A stretch of 64,000 nt of DNA from Bacteroidia bacterium (lineage in GTDB: Bacteria; Bacteroidota; Bacteroidia; Chitinophagales; Chitinophagaceae): positions 1 to 64,000 of the forward strand of contig JAUICZ010000006.1 of NCBI GenBank assembly GCA_030429205.1, written 5' to 3'. The translations under genes and the position numbers were made by a program. Shown here one piece after another: positions 6,062 through 45,089 of the stretch (its first letter is position 1; each line of letters starts with the position of its first letter). Below the pieces are notes generated by a model. It had not been told where the DNA came from, ran no database searches, and worked only from the letters and a program-made list of their open reading frames with translations.

Positions 6062-6520
6062 ATGAAACTTCTTAATAATACAATCATTGCTCTATTATCT
6101 ATAAGCATACTATGTACTTTTAATACAGATGCTTTTGCACAGAAGAAAAAGAAGAAAAATAAGATCCCTACTACTGCCGAACTGGAAGGCACATATTGGG
6201 CATTATTCGAAATGGATGGGAAACCCGTAAAAACGCCACCAAACGAACGAGAAGCTTACATTAAGCTAGTTAGCAAAAAAAACAAGCTTGAAGGATACAC
6301 TGGTTGTAACATAATAACCGGAAGTTTTGACCTAGGAAGAGACTATTTAACTTTTGAAGCAGCTACCACAGAGCGTGCCTGTGCTGATATGACTACAGAA
6401 AAATATGTAGTAAGGGCTCTTAACGAAGCAAACCGGTACGAAATAAATGGTCTCTACTTATTAATTTTTAAAGGCAATTATTTGCTGGCAATTTTTGAAG
6501 CACGATTTTATGACGAATAA
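6062..6520 (+). CDS. Secreted META (HslJ-like) domain protein
   Basis: A signal peptide ends at DAFA-Q, followed by a lysine-rich stretch. The META/HslJ domain then fills residues 40-150: LEGTYWALFEMDGKPV, then YTGCNIITGSFDL with the conserved GCN turn, then TTERAC. META-domain proteins are envelope-localised beta proteins linked to heat-shock or antibiotic tolerance in some bacteria, with no known activity. At 152 residues it is a single-domain form. It is monocistronic, with a symmetric terminator 10 bp after the stop that it shares with the convergent aldehyde dehydrogenase gene. Confidence 0.83.
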   Translation: MKLLNNTIIALLSISILCTFNTDAFAQKKKKKNKIPTTAELEGTYWALFEMDGKPVKTPPNEREAYIKLVSKKNKLEGYTGCNIITGSFDLGRDYLTFEAATTERACADMTTEKYVVRALNEANRYEINGLYLLIFKGNYLLAIFEARFYDE

Positions 6521-6530
6521 GTAATTAATA

Positions 6531-6557
6531 AAAAAGCGCCTTTAAAGGCGCTTTTTT
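6531..6557. terminator. Bidirectional terminator between META-domain gene and aldehyde dehydrogenase
   Basis: AAAAAGCGCC TTTAAA GGCGCTTTTTT is a near-perfect palindrome with an A-run before and a T-run after the stem, so it can serve both converging genes. Confidence 0.92.
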
Positions 6558-6576
6558 ATTGGAATGTATTTTCTTC

Positions 6577-8112
6577 TTACAACTCAAACTTTATACCCTG
6601 AGCTAATGGCAATTCGGTGCTCCAGTTAATAGTATTGGTCTGTCTGCGCATGTATGCCTTCCAACTGTCAGAACCACTTTCTCTTCCACCTCCTGTTTCT
6701 TTTTCACCACCAAAAGCTCCACCTATTTCAGCACCACTGGTTCCTATATTCACATTAGCGATACCACAATCACTACCCTTATGAGATAAGAAGGTCTCTG
6801 CCTCTCTCATGTTCAAACTCATTATAGCAGAAGACAAACCTTGTGGTACTCCATTCTGCATAGCTATTGCTTCTTCTGTCGTTTTATACTTCATTAAGTA
6901 CAATATAGGTGCAAAAGTTTCGTGCTGTACTATTGGCATTTCATTGCTTACCTCATAGATACAAGGCTTTACATAACAACCACTGCCAAAGCCTCTGCCT
7001 TTAAGTACACCACCTGCAATGACCGCTTTACCTCCTTGCTCTTTGATTGCATCAAGAGAGTTCAAGTAGCTTTGCACAGCATCTTTATCTATCAACGGTC
7101 CAACATGATTCTTCTGGCTTAGTGGGGTTCCTATATTCAATTGCTTGTAAGCTGTTGTTAGTTTTTTCTTGAAGCTATCATATACTTTTTCGTGGATGAT
7201 CAACCTTCTTGTTGAGGTACATCTTTGTCCGCATGTACCAACCGCTCCGAATAGTGCCGCTGGTATAGCTATATTCATATCCGCATTCTCTGTAATAATA
7301 ATGGCATTATTACCCCCCAACTCTAACAAGCTTTTACCTAGTCTGGCAGCAACAGCAGCACCTACAGCTTTACCCATTGGGATAGAACCAGTTGCTGACA
7401 CAAGAGGAATACGCGTATCGTGGCTTAACCATTCGCCTGTTTCTCTACCACCTACTACTAAACAGTTTACACCATCAGGCACCTTATTTGCCTTGAATAC
7501 CGTGTTCACAATATTCATACAAGCAATAGCCGATAACGGCACCTTTTCAGACGGTTTCCAAACGCAAGTATCTCCGCACACCCATGCAATAAATGCATTC
7601 CAACTCCACACTGCTACAGGAAAATTGAATGCACTGATAATACCAACTACACCTAGCGGATGCCATTGCTCATACATTCTGTGTTGGGGTCGCTCGCTAT
7701 GTATAGTCAAACCGTACAACTGACGAGATAATCCTACAGCAAAATCGGCTATGTCTATCATCTCTTGCACTTCTCCTAAACCCTCTTGCAGGCTTTTACC
7801 CATTTCGTATGAAACAAGTTTACCTAAAGCATCTTTATTTTCACGCAAGGCTTCGCCTATCTGACGTATAACCTCCCCTCGTTTAGGAGCCGGCCACATA
7901 CGCCACTCTCCAAAAGCAGATTGTGCTTTGTCTACTACCTCAGTATATGTTTTTTTATTGACCGCCTTTACGGTTGCAATAGGTTTACCATCTACAGGAG
8001 AGTAAGAAACTATCTGTGCACCTCCTGCTTTTCTTGATTTAACTCCAGAAAAGGCACCTTCATTTAGCTTATTGATGCCCAGCTGCTTTAACTCTTTTTG
8101 TATATTACTCAT
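6577..8112 (-). CDS. ALDH7-family aldehyde dehydrogenase (aminoadipate-semialdehyde type)
   Basis: NAD-dependent aldehyde dehydrogenase, closest in motifs to the ALDH7/antiquitin group that oxidises alpha-aminoadipate semialdehyde (piperideine-6-carboxylate) in lysine breakdown. Visible are FNFPVAVWSWN, the general-base glutamate in LLELGGNNA (about residue 264) and the nucleophilic cysteine in GTCGQRCTSTRR (about residue 298). The GG-NNA and GQRCT context is typical of ALDH7. About 511 residues from the ATG at 8112 (MSNIQKEL); an in-frame ATG ten codons upstream looks like leader. The substrate call rests on subfamily motifs. No other lysine-degradation gene is adjacent. Confidence 0.9.
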   Translation of the reverse strand: MSNIQKELKQLGINKLNEGAFSGVKSRKAGGAQIVSYSPVDGKPIATVKAVNKKTYTEVVDKAQSAFGEWRMWPAPKRGEVIRQIGEALRENKDALGKLVSYEMGKSLQEGLGEVQEMIDIADFAVGLSRQLYGLTIHSERPQHRMYEQWHPLGVVGIISAFNFPVAVWSWNAFIAWVCGDTCVWKPSEKVPLSAIACMNIVNTVFKANKVPDGVNCLVVGGRETGEWLSHDTRIPLVSATGSIPMGKAVGAAVAARLGKSLLELGGNNAIIITENADMNIAIPAALFGAVGTCGQRCTSTRRLIIHEKVYDSFKKKLTTAYKQLNIGTPLSQKNHVGPLIDKDAVQSYLNSLDAIKEQGGKAVIAGGVLKGRGFGSGCYVKPCIYEVSNEMPIVQHETFAPILYLMKYKTTEEAIAMQNGVPQGLSSAIMSLNMREAETFLSHKGSDCGIANVNIGTSGAEIGGAFGGEKETGGGRESGSDSWKAYMRRQTNTINWSTELPLAQGIKFEL

Positions 8113-18759: not shown

Positions 18760-19149
18760 GTGAAGGCTATAATATCTATATTAATATCATTGGTGTACCT
18801 GTTAGGTACTATGCCTGTCTATGTATCTTTCCACTACTGTGGAGATCATTTCCAATATATCACGGTAAACAAAGTTGAAGAAAAGAAAAGCTGTTGTGGA
18901 GAAAATGAGTCTCCAACCAATGGCTGCTGCTCTAACAAAACTGTTAGTTTAGATGTTGACGACCAAGTGAACTCTAAGGTACTACTAACTTTAAAAGTAC
19001 CTAAAGTAGATATAATCACCCCTAAGTATATACAAGCTCCTGAGACCTCAAAAGTGACATTTATTCACGAGGTTTTTAAGGTCAGCCACTCGCCCCCACT
19101 GGGGAATAAACTAAAGCTACATATTAGAAATTGTGTTTTCTTGATTTGA
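18760..19149 (+). CDS. HYC_CC_PP family secreted protein
   Basis: About 129 residues if translated from the GTG at 18760, which gives an ordinary lipid-passing leader (KAIISILISLVYLLGTMPVYVSFHYC). A TTG at 18742 is the alternative. The family-naming motifs are present: HYC directly after the leader, two CC pairs (SCCGEN and GCCSN) and SPPLGNK near the C-terminus. Six clustered cysteines plus histidines make a metal-binding role plausible, but none has been proven. It heads a plus-strand set with the MbnP-like gene and two diheme enzymes, separated by an 8-bp-stem hairpin. Confidence 0.78.
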   Translation: MKAIISILISLVYLLGTMPVYVSFHYCGDHFQYITVNKVEEKKSCCGENESPTNGCCSNKTVSLDVDDQVNSKVLLTLKVPKVDIITPKYIQAPETSKVTFIHEVFKVSHSPPLGNKLKLHIRNCVFLI

Positions 19150-19225: not shown

Positions 19226-20191
19226 ATGAAGTCATTGAAACTTATTTTATTATCTACAATATTATTATACTCATTAGGTGCATATGCTCAAACACCTGTC
19301 GAATTACACATTACACATAAATTAAGCGGCAACACGCCATTTAGTTTTAATCAACAAACAAAGAATGATCTAGGGAATGACCTTGAATTCACTCGTGTTG
19401 AATACTATATATCAAAGATCAGCATAAAGCACGACGGTGGCATGATAACACAAGTACCTAACCATTATATACTTGTGAATGCACAACAAGATGTAACAGA
19501 TCAGCTAGGTAACTTTAACATCACGAATGTTGAATCTATTTCATTCTTCATTGGTGTAGACACTCCTGCTAATAATGCAGACCCTTCAGCACAACCTAGC
19601 GGACACCCTTTAGCCCCAAAATCTCCATCTATGCACTGGGGGTGGGCATCAGGATATAGATTTATCGCTATTGAAGGTAACGGAGGTGCAAGCCTTAATC
19701 AGAAGTTTGAATTGCACGGACTATTCAATGAAAACTACTATGAACAGACCATCAACGTATCCGGAGTTAGTAAAAACGGTAAATTAATAATAGCTCTTAA
19801 TGCGAACTATGCACAATGCCTTAAAGGCATAGATGTATCTGCCGGACTAATTAGCCATGGATTAAATGTTGCTGATAAAACAGCACTTGCTAACTTCAGA
19901 GATAATGTATTCAAAAGCGGTAATCCTGTTTCAGTTAAGAATGTTACAGAAGAGACCAATAGCTTAGTAATTTACCCCAATCCAACTACAGGATCATTTA
20001 ACATTACTTCTAACCAAGCGAACAGTGCTACAATATCAGTATTGGATATACAGGGTAGAATCATCAAACAGCTTGAGAAAAGCAATACACAAGAGAATGT
20101 AAAAATAGACATACAAACTCCAGGTGTATACATATTGAAAGCTGCTTTTGACAGTGGCAATACTCAAGTAGAGAAAATAGTAGTTCAATAA
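19226..20191 (+). CDS. MbnP-like copper-binding family protein with T9SS sorting domain
   Basis: 321 residues from the ATG at 19226. A signal peptide ends at GAYAQ, and the MbnP domain spans about residues 24-235. It shows EFTRVEYYISKISI, the diagnostic MHWGWASGYRFIAIEG (HWGW at 137-140, holding the only two tryptophans of the protein), and histidines at 28, 31, 127, 137, 164 and 211. A T9SS type A domain follows from about 246 (VIYPNPTTGSFNI ... VEKIVVQ). Known for the family: MbnP proteins bind copper after a neighbouring MauG-like diheme enzyme converts a tryptophan to kynurenine. Inferred here: a surface-exposed version, modified by one of the two diheme proteins encoded 6 bp downstream. 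Confidence 0.88.
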   Translation: MKSLKLILLSTILLYSLGAYAQTPVELHITHKLSGNTPFSFNQQTKNDLGNDLEFTRVEYYISKISIKHDGGMITQVPNHYILVNAQQDVTDQLGNFNITNVESISFFIGVDTPANNADPSAQPSGHPLAPKSPSMHWGWASGYRFIAIEGNGGASLNQKFELHGLFNENYYEQTINVSGVSKNGKLIIALNANYAQCLKGIDVSAGLISHGLNVADKTALANFRDNVFKSGNPVSVKNVTEETNSLVIYPNPTTGSFNITSNQANSATISVLDIQGRIIKQLEKSNTQENVKIDIQTPGVYILKAAFDSGNTQVEKIVVQ

Positions 20192-20196
20192 GCCAT

Positions 20197-21228
20197 ATGA
20201 GACAAATTATTGGTCTCATATCAGCTTCTTTGTTGTTTACAGTACTCGTTTTTTCTTGCAAGAAAAAGCAGAGTACTGTACCCGACTTTGCTATGTCTTT
20301 AACTAAAGTTCCGACGGGGTTCCCTAATATTCCGTTTCCAGACGACAATGCGTTTACAATTGAAAAGTGGAAACTAGGAAAGCAATTGTTTTATGACAAA
20401 ATGTTATCTGTAGATTACTCTACAAGTTGTGCATCTTGCCATAAAGCAGATCTGGCATTTAGTGACAATGTACAACTTAGTATAGGTGCAGGTAGCTTAA
20501 CAGGTAGAAGGAATGCACCATCGTTAACTAATGTTGCATACCATCCGTATTTTACCAGAGAGGGAGGCGTACCTACCTTGGAAATGCAAATACTTGTCCC
20601 AATACAAGAACATGATGAATTTAACTTCAACATTGTAGAGATTGCAGAGCGAATGAATCAGATACCTGAGTATGTAGAACAAAGTCTAAAAACATTTGAT
20701 CGCAAACCGGATGCCTATGTTATTACACGTGCGATTGCCACTTTTGAGCGAACATTGGTTAGTGGAAACAGTGAATATGACAAGTACATCAACAACAACC
20801 CAAATAGCATGCCTGCATCCGCAGTTCGGGGCATGAACTTATTCTACAGTGAGCGTACAAAATGTGGTAACTGCCATAGCGGATTCAACTTTTCTAACTA
20901 CAGTTTCCAAAACAATGGTTTGTATACAACATATAAAGACATTGGCAGAGAACGGTTTACTAAAGAAGCTGATGATAATGCTTTATTTAAAGTGCCATCA
21001 TTAAGAAACGTCGCCGTAACGGCTCCGTATATGCATGATGGATCTTTAACAACACTTAAGGATGTAGTGGCACATTATAATAGTGGTGGCAATAGCCATA
21101 GAAATAAAAGCCACCTCATTAAGCCGCTACATTTAACAAAACAAGAACAGAATGACATAATTGCATTCCTTGAATCTTTAACTGATTACCAGTTTATTGC
21201 TAATCAAAATTTTTATAACAATGATTAA
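20197..21228 (+). CDS. Diheme cytochrome c peroxidase/MauG-family lipoprotein 1
   Basis: 343 residues with a lipobox ending at Cys21 (LVFSC) followed by KKKQ. Two c-type haem sites are CASCH (78-82) and CGNCH (223-227), with the CCP/MauG fold marks LGKQLFYDK, NAPSLTNVAYHP, KVPSLRNVAVTAPYMHDGSL and HYNSGG. Where most family members have FWDGR, with the tryptophan that relays electrons between the haems, this protein has YFTREGG, so that tryptophan is absent. It lies 6 bp after the MbnP-like gene and is the best candidate for the enzyme that modifies it (inference). Its end overlaps the next gene by 8 bp. Confidence 0.92.
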   Translation: MRQIIGLISASLLFTVLVFSCKKKQSTVPDFAMSLTKVPTGFPNIPFPDDNAFTIEKWKLGKQLFYDKMLSVDYSTSCASCHKADLAFSDNVQLSIGAGSLTGRRNAPSLTNVAYHPYFTREGGVPTLEMQILVPIQEHDEFNFNIVEIAERMNQIPEYVEQSLKTFDRKPDAYVITRAIATFERTLVSGNSEYDKYINNNPNSMPASAVRGMNLFYSERTKCGNCHSGFNFSNYSFQNNGLYTTYKDIGRERFTKEADDNALFKVPSLRNVAVTAPYMHDGSLTTLKDVVAHYNSGGNSHRNKSHLIKPLHLTKQEQNDIIAFLESLTDYQFIANQNFYNND

Positions 21229-22321
21229 TAAAAGATATATCACAACTATAAGCACACTAGCAATGCTCTTGCTATTGAGCTATTGTAAGAAAGACCCTGA
21301 AACAACATCCGTTGAAGAAGCCCAGTACGATGAATCTTTGTACAACTTCATGCATGGTAGTTTCCCGGCGCCTGACTTTAACGGGAATACACCAACAAAT
21401 GCAGGTGTAAAATTAGGCCGTATGTTGTTTTATGAAAAGAGTCTTTCAAGAGACAATTCTCAATCCTGTGCCAGCTGTCATTTACAAAAATTTGCTTTTA
21501 CCGACACCGCACGCTTTTCTCTGGGTGTAGAAGGAAAAGAAGGTAAAAGACAAGCCATGAGTGTTTTTAATACCGCATGGCATGATAATGAGTTCTTCTG
21601 GGATGGTCGGGCACATTTATTAAGAGACCAATCTCTCAAGCCCATTCAAGACCCATTAGAAATGAATGAAACTCTGGAAAATGTGGTTACGAAACTATCT
21701 GCAAAAAAAGAGTATAAAGATCAGTTTATTCGTGTTTTTGGATCTGATGAAATAACTCCGGCAAAAATGTCCTTAGCGATGGAACAGTTTATGAATACTA
21801 TTGTTTCTAATCAATCTAAGTATGACAAATACCTTGCAGGAGAAGTTACACTTAGCCCAAGCGAAGAGCGTGGAAGAAAATTATTCTTTTTAGAGTATAA
21901 TGAGTTTCTACCAGACCAGTCGGGTGCCGATTGTGCTCACTGCCACAGCGGATTCAACTTCTCCAATAACCAGTACATGAATAATGGACTGGATGCAAAC
22001 GGGCAGTTTAAAGATGACGGCCGTAAAGCTGCAACAGAAAAAGCTAACGATCTGGGTAAGTTTAAAGTAACATCTTTAAGAAATATTGCATTAACTGCAC
22101 CATACATGCACGATGGACGGTTTAATACACTTGAAGAAGTGCTGGATCATTATAATAATGGCATAAAGAAGTCTGCGACGTTGGATCCAGCTTTAGATGC
22201 CACAACAAATACAGGGTTACGGTTATCAGCACAAGACAAGTCTGACATCATCGCATTCTTGCATACACTAACAGACAACACGATCACTACTGATGAGCGT
22301 TTTTCTGATCCATTTAATTAA
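21221..22321 (+). CDS. Diheme cytochrome c peroxidase/MauG-family lipoprotein 2
   Basis: 366 residues from the ATG at 21221, which overlaps the upstream stop. Lipobox at Cys22 (LLSYC) followed by KKDPE, similar to known Bacteroidota surface-lipoprotein export signals. Haem sites are CASCH (83-87) and CAHCH (238-242). Unlike its upstream neighbour it keeps FFWDGRAHLLRDQ with the conserved inter-haem tryptophan near residue 127, so it looks like a regular diheme peroxidase/MauG. The pair is moderately similar (CHSGFNFSN and TAPYMHDG shared), so they may be old duplicates with split roles. Confidence 0.92.
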   Translation: MINKRYITTISTLAMLLLLSYCKKDPETTSVEEAQYDESLYNFMHGSFPAPDFNGNTPTNAGVKLGRMLFYEKSLSRDNSQSCASCHLQKFAFTDTARFSLGVEGKEGKRQAMSVFNTAWHDNEFFWDGRAHLLRDQSLKPIQDPLEMNETLENVVTKLSAKKEYKDQFIRVFGSDEITPAKMSLAMEQFMNTIVSNQSKYDKYLAGEVTLSPSEERGRKLFFLEYNEFLPDQSGADCAHCHSGFNFSNNQYMNNGLDANGQFKDDGRKAATEKANDLGKFKVTSLRNIALTAPYMHDGRFNTLEEVLDHYNNGIKKSATLDPALDATTNTGLRLSAQDKSDIIAFLHTLTDNTITTDERFSDPFN

Positions 22322-43132: not shown

Positions 43133-45070
43133 CTAGTATGCTCCTCCAACCTTTCTATTATTCCAATCTTCGTTATTTGTAAACACAGGTAAACGTTCAG
43201 GCTTTGAAGTCATGCCCGTAGTATCAGTAAGCGCATTCATGAATGATACGATATCTTTTACCTCCTGTTTGTTTAAACTCAGACTGTCAAAAGGTAATGT
43301 TTGGTGCTCAATGATAATATCAATACCTGCTCCACCGCCATTATTATAAAAATCAACCACATCATCCAACGTTTTGTATGCACCATTATGCATGTAAGGC
43401 GCTGTTAATGCAACATTTCTTATGGTAGGGGTCTTGAATGAATACTCAAAAAAGTACACTCTTTCCTTAGACCTGCCAACGGCTCTGCCTCTATCATTAT
43501 CTAAAACAGGAGTTGTAGCGTAAGGATCTTTAGGTACACCTAACACTTCACTTTCAGATTCTCTATAGAGAGGAGGAACGGTGCCGTTAAAAGTAGGTGC
43601 AAAGTGACAAGTGCCACATACGGCCTTACCCATAAACAGGTTAAACCCTCTTTGCACCTCAGGTTCTATACTATTTAATTCTCCTCTAACGTATTTATCA
43701 AACTTGGAGTTGAATCCACGCAACGAACTTACATATGCAGAAATAGCAAAAGAAATAGTTTTACCATTAATCTTTTCTCCTTTGTAACCTTCAAAACACT
43801 CCTCAAACATTTTTGTATACTCAGAACTTTTTCTGAGCTTTTCTTCGATCTTAATCATATCTGTATCAAACTCCTTTCTGCTGACCAAAACATGTTCAAT
43901 TTGATCCTCTAACGCTTCAGCCCTCATATCGTGAAAAAACTTCTCACTATATACACAGTTAATTAGTGTAGGGGCATTTCTATCAACTGTTCCATCAAAA
44001 CCTAGTGCAATACTCTTAGGCTTACCATCTGTAAATGCTTTTTCAGGATGATGACAACTGGCACATGAGCGTTGCAAATTAGAAGACAAAATAGGATCAT
44101 AAAATAAATACTTACCCAACGCGATTGTTTTGTCTGTAGCAAACCTTTCAGGTAACTGTATATATTTTCTGTAGTTCAGAAAATCGTTGGCAAACAGATT
44201 AGTTGACTCATGGTTATATGGCAATAAAGAGGCCTCGTTAACCACCTCATGTAGCATCTCTATGCCGGACGCTTTGTGCAAATAGTATATTGAAGCGAAT
44301 AGCGGATTAATATACGTCCTTAACACAAACAGCCTGTCAAGACTATCAAAGTCATCATGCTGCTTCAGGTACTCTATAAAAGAGTCAAATGTTGCATACA
44401 TGAGTTCTGCTTGTGTAGCATCTACACCTTTAAAAAATTTACTATACAAACCTAAATCACTACGCATTGTTTCCAATGCTGTTATCGCATCCTGTATCGA
44501 GTTACCGGATGCAGGCACATCAAAGCCTGTTAGCCCTAATGTAAAAATGGACACAAGTTCAACACGCATTGCTTCTAAAACTACCCTATCATAAATTGGT
44601 CTTCTAATAACAGTGTATTCATCTAATACTTTTGATAACAATGATGTTTGCTTTCTTATATCGGGTAAATTTTCTTCAAAATCTCCTGAGAAAAGTAGTT
44701 CATCTAACACTTGCAAACCTCTAGGTTGTGATATTTCTAAGTTAGCTGTGTTAGGAGTAATCTTGGGCAAGGGGGCTCCATTAATACTCATCTTCACAAA
44801 ATCAGGATCATCATATGAAGCTATGTATTCCCAAGCCTTGTATTTTGCTCGTATTCTCAGGAATCTGCTCTGCAAAATATCCGCTGTAATATTATCGTCA
44901 TGTAGAAACTGTCCAAAATATTGAACCTCTCCTAAAAACTCTTTCAATCTTTCTTGTTGACGTTCATAGATCAACTCTGCATTACCTTTCTGATTGTTTT
45001 TGAATGCAGTTGACAGTATAAAAACTGACAACACTAATATTGTAATTGATGCGACCTTTTTCATTTCCAA
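43133..45070 (-). CDS. Diheme cytochrome c peroxidase with N-terminal imelysin-like domain
   Basis: 645 residues with signal peptide (ILVLSVFILSTAF). Residues about 30-290 are all-helical and resemble an imelysin domain: paired helices with KYKAWEYIASYDDPDF, then PRGLQVLDELLF at 117-127, where imelysins have GxHxxE. The C-terminal half is a CCP/MauG domain with haem sites CASCH (336-340) and CGTCH (485-489), NAPTLINCVYSEKF, TIRNVALTAPYMHNG and a peptide FFHDMRAEALEDQ, where the usual inter-haem tryptophan is histidine. Roughly twice the usual CCP length. It shares strand and neighbourhood with the PhoX-like gene, but a hairpin lies between them. Confidence 0.85.
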   Translation of the reverse strand: MEMKKVASITILVLSVFILSTAFKNNQKGNAELIYERQQERLKEFLGEVQYFGQFLHDDNITADILQSRFLRIRAKYKAWEYIASYDDPDFVKMSINGAPLPKITPNTANLEISQPRGLQVLDELLFSGDFEENLPDIRKQTSLLSKVLDEYTVIRRPIYDRVVLEAMRVELVSIFTLGLTGFDVPASGNSIQDAITALETMRSDLGLYSKFFKGVDATQAELMYATFDSFIEYLKQHDDFDSLDRLFVLRTYINPLFASIYYLHKASGIEMLHEVVNEASLLPYNHESTNLFANDFLNYRKYIQLPERFATDKTIALGKYLFYDPILSSNLQRSCASCHHPEKAFTDGKPKSIALGFDGTVDRNAPTLINCVYSEKFFHDMRAEALEDQIEHVLVSRKEFDTDMIKIEEKLRKSSEYTKMFEECFEGYKGEKINGKTISFAISAYVSSLRGFNSKFDKYVRGELNSIEPEVQRGFNLFMGKAVCGTCHFAPTFNGTVPPLYRESESEVLGVPKDPYATTPVLDNDRGRAVGRSKERVYFFEYSFKTPTIRNVALTAPYMHNGAYKTLDDVVDFYNNGGGAGIDIIIEHQTLPFDSLSLNKQEVKDIVSFMNALTDTTGMTSKPERLPVFTNNEDWNNRKVGGAY

Positions 45071-45089
45071 AAAGTATTATATACAAATA

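Follow-up and report, generated by a model that had tools for sequence, protein, structure and literature searches.

A tailed MbnP and two non-equivalent MbnH-like di-haem enzymes: a conserved variant of the MbnP/MbnH pairing in Bacteroidota

Within a 64,000-nucleotide stretch of the genome of a Bacteroidia bacterium of the family Chitinophagaceae (GenBank assembly GCA_030429205.1, contig JAUICZ010000006.1, positions 1 to 64,000; hereafter the window), four closely spaced genes on the forward strand encode a small HYC_CC_PP protein, an MbnP-family protein ending in a sorting tail of the type IX secretion system (T9SS), and two di-haem enzymes resembling MbnH, here called DH1 and DH2 (Table 1). 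This cassette is a real and conserved variant in which the T9SS tail, the paired but non-equivalent enzymes and the loss of a tryptophan between the haems of one of them are new, and the association of MbnP with MbnH is known. An earlier note on this DNA, made from its letters alone, had recognised an MbnP-family protein with HWGW at residues 137-140 as its only tryptophans, a T9SS sorting tail, and two overlapping di-haem genes of MbnH/MauG type, all of which are borne out below. It had also set the enzyme genes 6 bp downstream; the tight coupling stands, but the spacing from the MbnP stop to the ATG of DH1 is 5 bases, followed by an overlap of 8 bases between DH1 and DH2. Its remark that no methanobactin gene is present holds for MbnB (TIGR04159), the only such gene searched for, which has no match in the genome. 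The HYC_CC_PP gene, four untailed MbnP genes elsewhere in the genome, the missing tryptophan of DH1 and the non-equivalence of the two enzymes were absent from that account.

Table 1. Features of the cassette, with positions in the window
Feature	Position	Strand	Remarks
HYC_CC_PP family small protein (HYC + CC motifs)	18760..19149 (approx.)	+	NF047658 52.1 bits, cut-off 28
MbnP-family protein, 321 aa	19226..20191	+	signal peptide end ..AYAQ; MbnP domain 23-205; T9SS tail 249-321
M136-H137-W138-G139-W140 motif	19631..19645	+	identical in 83/83 rows; W138 = first Trp of WxW, predicted kynurenine
H164, candidate copper ligand with M136	19715..19717	+	83/83; kept by every MbnP type in the comparison
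H211, invariant His of the tailed subfamily	19856..19858	+	83/83 rows
T9SS type A C-terminal sorting domain	19970..20188	+	TIGR04183 48.2 bits (cut-off 23); PF18962 52.1 bits, over cut-off
DH1, di-haem MbnH-like protein, lipobox-type Cys21, without inter-haem Trp	20197..21228	+	
DH1 Arg121 at the inter-haem Trp place (MauG Trp93)	20557..20559	+	aligned with Trp of 6E1C and MacA
DH2, di-haem MbnH-like protein, lipobox-type Cys22	21221..22321	+	
DH2 Trp127, equivalent of MauG Trp93	21599..21601	+	W in 69/70, one gap

The MbnP protein matches Pfam family PF20243 at 104.3 bits (cut-off 27, E 1e-29), a family also matched at E 0.001 or better by all 83 MbnP rows of the comparative sample described below. 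Its AlphaFold model (predicted local distance difference test score, pLDDT, 93.4) has its closest solved fold in MbnP itself (7L6G; Z 17.3 over 204 residues, root-mean-square deviation (rmsd) 2.8, Foldseek E 1.9e-6), the sole match for the MbnP domain among the matches listed. Tryptophan occurs at residues 138 and 140 and nowhere else, both inside an MHWGW motif that aligns with GMAWNWQAGRRF of 7L6G; relatives often have more, and just two are found in 11 of the 83 rows. Seven residues are invariant across the rows (M136, H137, W138, G139, W140, H164 and H211), and for MHWGW this invariance is partly built in, because PSMHWGWA served as the search pattern. The motif also recurs in 16 of 16 tailed-subfamily MbnPs drawn from genome searches in which that pattern played no part (L143-L147, L150, L151, L165-L168, L170, L171 and L174-L176, among which L146 and L147 are identical with L056 and L048 of the sample). 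M136, W138, W140 and H164 are common to four untailed MbnPs and to an MbnP of Deinococcus; H211 has a histidine aligned with it, or next to it, in three of the four untailed copies in the window's genome, and none in the one paired with a di-haem gene. A 2021 PNAS abstract by Manesis et al. is said to report that the first tryptophan of WxW becomes kynurenine and that copper is held by a histidine and a methionine, roles that H164 and M136 presumably fill here.

The sorting tail scores over the cut-offs of both models applied to it and is found in 82 of the 83 rows, the exception (L110) ending with its contig. Its model resembles C-terminal domains solved in T9SS translocon complexes (Z 9.3-10.5), with fibronectin-type domains nearly equal (Z up to 9.9), and the genome encodes the translocon protein SprA (2632.6 bits). 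Tail and SprA together mark the protein as predicted type A cargo of the T9SS, with a predicted location at the cell surface. One relative (L100, 4905-10867) has, in this order, a tailed MbnP, DH2, a 795-residue protein whose only Pfam match is a T9SS tail, a second MbnP and a partial third.

Both enzymes belong to the CCP_MauG family (156.5 bits for DH1, 190.4 for DH2), each with two CxxCH motifs, and for both the best NCBIfam model is that of MbnH (TIGR04039), at scores below its cut-off. The DH1 model (pLDDT 86.8) lies closest to 6E1C (Z 31.6 over 306 residues, rmsd 2.5), an entry titled ‘a MauG-like protein associated with microbial copper homeostasis’ that we take to be MbnH, followed by MacA (Z 26.1), MauG (Z 23.5) and BthA (Z 22.3); 6E1C is likewise the nearest solved relative of DH2 by sequence (E 1.5e-50). 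The Gln/Glu pocket and the tyrosine ligand of MauG are retained in each. Gln131 and Glu141 of DH1 are present in 62 of 62 rows and Tyr294 in 61 (one gap); Gln137 and Glu147 of DH2 in 69 of 70 (one gap) and Tyr311 in 67, the rest being gaps or X. In both enzymes the tryptophan place lies 10 residues before the glutamine, itself 10 from the glutamate, the spacing of MauG Trp93, Gln103 and Glu113, and MauG Tyr294 has a tyrosine counterpart, in a position taken by methionine in the peroxidase 3O5C. At the place of Trp93 itself the two part company: the DH2 rows keep tryptophan, while DH1 has arginine in 57, phenylalanine in 4, lysine in 1 and tryptophan in none (n=62), and for this reason we describe DH1 as MbnH-like without filing it as MbnH. 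A cysteine at the lipobox place (68/70 DH2, 53/62 DH1) suggests that both enzymes are anchored to a membrane by lipid. A signal for export of the enzymes to the surface was considered and set aside, in that the published optimum C-X-K-(D/E)2-X (PMC5080379) occurs in just 14 of 68 DH2 and 2 of 53 DH1 sequences and in neither enzyme of the window; since so few fit it, a periplasmic location is assumed for the enzymes by default.

Readings diverge on what the missing tryptophan means for DH1. Trp93 of MauG lies midway between the haems and has been suggested, in a passage of PMC6405878, to be critical for the bis-Fe(IV) state, and its absence from all 62 DH1 rows lends some colour to the idea that DH1 is a peroxidase or electron-transfer accessory stationed near DH2, removing peroxide or supplying electrons and leaving MbnP unmodified. 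The same source reports that BthA, with serine at this place, forms an atypically stable bis-Fe(IV) state (PMC6405878), so that an enzyme without the tryptophan does not thereby lose its high-valent chemistry; a peroxidase, too, ought to need the tryptophan if the suggestion held, and the DH1 model fits MbnH (Z 31.6) better than it fits peroxidases (Z at most 26.1). We regard an accessory role of this kind as rather unlikely, and by analogy with BthA DH1 may be altered rather than dead. DH1 may carry out a second modification, or may act as an accessory oxidant or as a peroxidase.

The two enzymes are of separate descent. In a tree of 84 rows, whose DH1 and DH2 members are random subsets of 28 each plus those of the window, DH1 and DH2 each form one group (100/99 in both cases), which rules out a recent tandem duplication of a single enzyme. 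The earlier note had asked whether phylogeny might place the di-haem proteins outside MbnH-like partners: on this tree the enzymes that accompany untailed MbnPs in Bacteroidota form a group with DH2 (98/89), with DH1 apart, and for DH1 it is the fold that points to MbnH as the best match, as the NCBIfam scores do for both. The 98/89 group also holds four di-haem proteins of the window's genome that have no co-directional MbnP beside them; in a second tree, built by a quick method without those four and without a further locus described below (L177), DH2 and the untailed-MbnP partners join at 99. On the second tree most of the tryptophan loss is accounted for by a single event ancestral to 35 of the 36 paired DH1 rows (support 93), the remaining row (L173) falling outside and being weakly placed. 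We read the loss as most probably ancient and single, so that its association with pairing has no independent repeats, and the notion of a recurrent response to pairing is unsupported. Among single enzymes nearer to the DH1 than to the DH2 profile, tryptophan is kept in 13 of 16, the exceptions being L152 and L155 (both Ala) and L159 (Phe), the last on a contig of 3.9 kilobases (kb); an untailed-MbnP partner, L138, also lacks it (Leu). Eleven of these 16 adjoin an untailed MbnP. On the second tree the idea of a DH1 lineage widely serving untailed MbnPs does not stand up: six fall on the DH1 side (weakly, at 77), among which L153 alone has an MbnP in its stretch, eight lie nearer DH2 and the untailed-MbnP partners, and two go with MbnH and the Deinococcus enzyme.

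DH1 and DH2 are distinct lineages, each conserved, that have stayed together, and both have the Gln/Glu pocket and the tyrosine ligand, which invites the thought of a division of labour in which W138 is turned into kynurenine by DH2 while DH1 oxidises W140, or a histidine or tyrosine specific to tailed proteins, to give a copper site unlike that of MbnP. Four histidines (H31, H69, H127 and H137) are indeed conserved in tailed MbnPs and missing from the four untailed copies of the genome; W140, however, is also conserved in the MbnPs of single-enzyme loci. We consider this division of labour rather improbable, and give still less credence to its broader form, in which two chemically different MbnH-like enzymes act in sequence to build a copper site that goes beyond kynurenine, with export of the folded protein by the T9SS to follow.

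The cassette is scattered thinly through the Bacteroidota. The sample was taken from one scan of genome contigs, of which the best 80 of 168 relatives make up 79 distinct loci with 83 MbnP rows; it includes near-duplicates and loci of the same genome (L091 and L100 share a contig) and comprises Taibaiella, Crocinitomix, Saprospiraceae, Fluviicola and other Bacteroidota, with one locus (L068) lacking a group name. The co-occurrence of tailed MbnPs with paired di-haem genes, which the earlier note had proposed to survey, proves to be a distinct and recurring arrangement: both enzymes are at the locus in 55 of 79, ordered MbnP-DH1-DH2 in 43, MbnP-DH2-DH1 in 10 and with DH1 turned round in 2, and in one of the 55 (L077) DH2 is a 193-residue piece. 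Among cultured relatives, Taibaiella lutea (L060) shows the MbnP-DH1-DH2 order, and Crocinitomix algicola (L099) has DH2 next to MbnP. Where at least 2.3 kb follow the MbnP gene (n=67), both enzymes are present in 51, DH1 alone in 2 and neither in 2, the remaining loci carrying DH2 alone. With the first ATG taken as the start, gaps of 30 bases or less follow MbnP in 49 of 67 cases and an enzyme in 51 of 53, a few of the gaps counted leading to a second MbnP. Because the cassette recurs in this way, the arrangement is more than chance. Searches of whole genomes for the 18 loci without DH1 found a strong DH1 (at least 348 bits) elsewhere in 11, a weaker match that is a candidate for the DH1 lineage (225-268 bits) in 6, and in the last one no match scoring more than 171 bits; in the two complete loci with DH1 alone, DH2 lies elsewhere in both genomes. 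Within the family to which the window belongs, 6 of 147 genomes carry a close relative of the tailed MbnP. A survey of 395 genomes of the phylum at single-sequence thresholds gave 5 tailed MbnPs, 34 DH1 and 9 DH2, figures not used as prevalence because the thresholds missed diverged MbnPs (L150, L151, L165, L166 and L167).

Some loci depart from the common plan. L112 (4947-9106) and L113 (759-4945) have a tailed MbnP with no adjoining enzymes, followed by a protein of about 1000 residues, and the cassette lies elsewhere in their genomes, whole in L168 and split over contigs in L169 and L170. At L151 (4377-7186), two open reading frames (ORFs) with an MbnP domain stand between and beside DH1 and DH2, the second of which (6413-7186) is without MxWxW.

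Untailed MbnP loci provide the contrast. In 15 of them from the window's bacterial family (L128-L142, 6.3-9.5 kb each), 14 have exactly one adjacent di-haem gene, and the fifteenth has three MbnPs and one distant di-haem gene; two enzymes are found in 0 of the 15, although in two of these (L133 and L140) the sequence stops less than 0.6 kb from the enzyme, so that a second one could lie beyond. Of the tailed loci in the same family, 5 of 5 have two. The genome of the window has five PF20243 genes in all, the other four being shorter, without a tail in the alignment and with a lipoprotein-type cysteine (L018, 5637-7450; L019, 6446-7255; L020, 6615-7409; L021, 6851-7681). Only L018 has a co-directional di-haem gene directly adjoining, L020 has one facing it, and L019 lies in a neighbourhood that was judged by eye to be of arsenic type. 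A pair of adjoining di-haem genes without an MbnP is seen at L177 (4033-6253), where both score with the DH1 profile and lack the Gln/Glu pocket, no MbnP being found in the stretch.

Neighbouring genes within about 5 kb, chained into BLAST families that each take their name from a single representative, place the tailed loci among genes for metals. Two HYC_CC_PP clusters, whose representatives match NF047658, occur in 35 of 79 loci, HMA proteins in 16 and CusA/CzcA-type RND proteins in 8, with 6 loci each for a multicopper oxidase, a heavy-metal P-type ATPase, an outer-membrane efflux protein, an RND adaptor with DUF3347, HMBD and an AraC-type regulator. At least one frequent neighbour family is present in 48 of 79 loci, and one other than HYC or AraC in 37. 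CopZ is the nearest model for the representative HMA protein and CueO for the representative oxidase, both below cut-off. Against a background of 43 HMA matches in about 51.4 Mb (12 genomes), 0.63 would be expected in the 0.75 Mb of loci and 16 loci were observed, a rough factor, because BLAST clusters are set against Pfam matches, and one measured against a raised background, as 12 of 79 genomes were searched and 9 of the 12 were picked from HMA-bearing loci. That the MbnP/di-haem pair has a copper role is separately supported by a Deinococcus radiodurans plasmid (L127, 2959-6402), whose annotated row reads MbnP, cytochrome-c peroxidase, hypothetical protein, CopC and CopD.

As a mixture, the neighbours suggest export and tolerance rather more than uptake. 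The earlier note had proposed a copper uptake or sensing system, which goes unsupported because the recurring neighbours are mostly genes of export and tolerance. A surface protein for copper acquisition, a scavenger in the manner of MopE and CorA, would find a precedent in CorA, described in PMC3912023 as a Cu(I) protein that is associated with the surface, repressed by copper and transcribed together with a di-haem peroxidase, and a cluster of TonB-type receptors, recognised by eye, does recur in 4 loci; set against neighbours that are mainly of the efflux and tolerance kind, acquisition seems to us doubtful.

The interpretation that we favour, and consider likely if far from assured, is that the cassette produces a protein of copper homeostasis with a kynurenine-copper site, which DH2 matures and which is exported to the surface. 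MbnP would cross the inner membrane by way of its type I signal peptide and, in the periplasm, meet the two probably lipid-anchored MbnH-like enzymes of its own operon. DH2, with the full MauG/MbnH relay set of tyrosine ligand, Gln/Glu pocket and inter-haem tryptophan, would use peroxide to oxidise W138, and the resulting kynurenine would make up a Cu(I) site together with M136 and H164. DH1 would act on the same substrate or assist DH2 as a slower or longer-lived oxidant. The folded MbnP would then be exported by the T9SS, and the product at the surface would bind or buffer copper in the service of homeostasis or tolerance rather than as a dedicated uptake route. Signal peptide and tail account for the transport steps at either end of this scheme, and family membership for oxidation and copper. 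The analysis itself establishes gene content, conservation, lineages, tail, predicted folds and linkage to metal genes; kynurenine formation, copper binding, the order of events, the location of the enzymes and the task of each are what we infer.

Several observations weigh against this interpretation. MbnP is accompanied by DH2 alone in 12 of the 67 loci with sufficient sequence downstream, and two loci outside the 15-locus family set (L148 and L173) join an untailed MbnP to two enzymes; the tail therefore does not explain the second enzyme, and a joint origin of the two is weakened. The DH1-like enzymes of these two loci are odd, with phenylalanine at the Tyr294 place in L148 and serine at the Gln131 place in L173. 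In the 16 tailed-subfamily proteins found independently of the search pattern, the PF18962 tail is over cut-off in 12, below it in 3 and undetected in 1 (L176). The representative P-type ATPase scores with the zinc/cadmium type and not with the copper type, which makes the linkage one to metals at large, with copper as a part of it. Lipidation of the enzymes and the site of modification are predictions from sequence, and the assignment of copper ligands depends on the abstract of Manesis (2021). The scores with the NCBIfam models for MbnP and MbnH are low: the MbnP protein reaches 32.8 bits with MbnP_like_WxW (TIGR04052), far under the cut-off of 140, which makes it no equivalog of MbnP proper, yet a member of the wider Pfam family, and DH1 and DH2 reach 275.1 and 239.9 bits with TIGR04039, under the cut-off of 362.85. 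The enzyme partner of the untailed MbnP at L018 is also under that cut-off (217.4 bits). Such scores would fit a protein whose tail and domain are real but whose copper binding is lost, with the di-haem proteins ordinary cytochrome c peroxidases beside MbnP by chance. That explanation is very improbable: WxW, methionine and histidine are conserved, a MauG-type tyrosine replaces the methionine of 3O5C, both enzymes occur together in 55 of 79 loci, and the loci are linked to metal genes.

The HYC_CC_PP gene, immediately upstream of MbnP and with its start at GTG 18760 or perhaps TTG 18742, is the probable first gene of the cassette at this locus. Outer genes scanned (a kinase, a thiolase, an amidohydrolase and an outer-membrane beta-barrel protein) look unrelated. 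On the reverse strand at 43133-45076, a 647-residue ORF matches CCP_MauG at residues 316-466 only, with no Pfam match in its first 300 residues; it is a third, distant di-haem gene of the window, and on the tree is not near DH1 or DH2.

Kynurenine copper sites are known from few proteins. If the favoured interpretation is true, the cassette adds a surface-exported branch of such sites in an abundant phylum and joins protein oxidation by di-haem enzymes to export by the T9SS. Paired enzymes with and without the inter-haem tryptophan, side by side with one substrate, make a natural test of what that residue does, and L148 and L173 let the roles of tail and second enzyme be told apart.

MbnP/MbnH pairs far beyond the methanobactin producers have already been published (PMC3621798), as have surface kynurenine-copper proteins of methanotrophs with a co-transcribed di-haem peroxidase (PMC3912023); the tailed subfamily, the two non-equivalent enzymes and the missing tryptophan are undescribed in titles and abstracts among the matches listed, by which absence from print is not claimed. 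BthA of Burkholderia is like DH1 in having no tryptophan between the haems, as passages of PMC6405878 describe. It differs in having serine there, and is 26-27% identical to DH1, with a Z of about 22 to its model. We know of no MbnP partner of BthA. MauG, the enzyme of TTQ biosynthesis, which oxidises tryptophan in a protein with peroxide, shares the tyrosine ligand and the Gln103/Glu113-type pocket; it differs in its substrate, in the score of its own model (TIGR03791, 199.7 and 173.5 bits for DH1 and DH2 against a cut-off of 443.85) and in keeping the Trp93 that DH1 lacks. The MopE/SACCP and CorA/CorB systems of methanotrophs are alike in pairing a surface kynurenine-copper protein with a co-transcribed di-haem protein, CorA with a Kyn62 and His64 motif in place of the W-x-W of tailed MbnP (PMC3912023). 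They differ in having one enzyme, and neither MopE nor CorA was identified among the listed structural matches of the MbnP model, which excludes nothing. Their hosts are Proteobacteria, and they are not known to carry a T9SS tail. The untailed MbnPs with one di-haem gene in Bacteroidota and Deinococcus (for example L018, L128-L142 and L127) share PF20243, W-x-W and an adjoining MauG-type enzyme, and differ in having no sorting tail and a single enzyme. With the MbnP/MbnH pair of Methylosinus trichosporium OB3b (7L6G and 6E1C), the cassette shares the MbnP fold, WxW with methionine and histidine, an MbnH-like neighbour and a setting of metal genes; it differs from that pair in having no match to MbnB, a T9SS tail, and two MbnH-like enzymes, one of them without the tryptophan between its haems.

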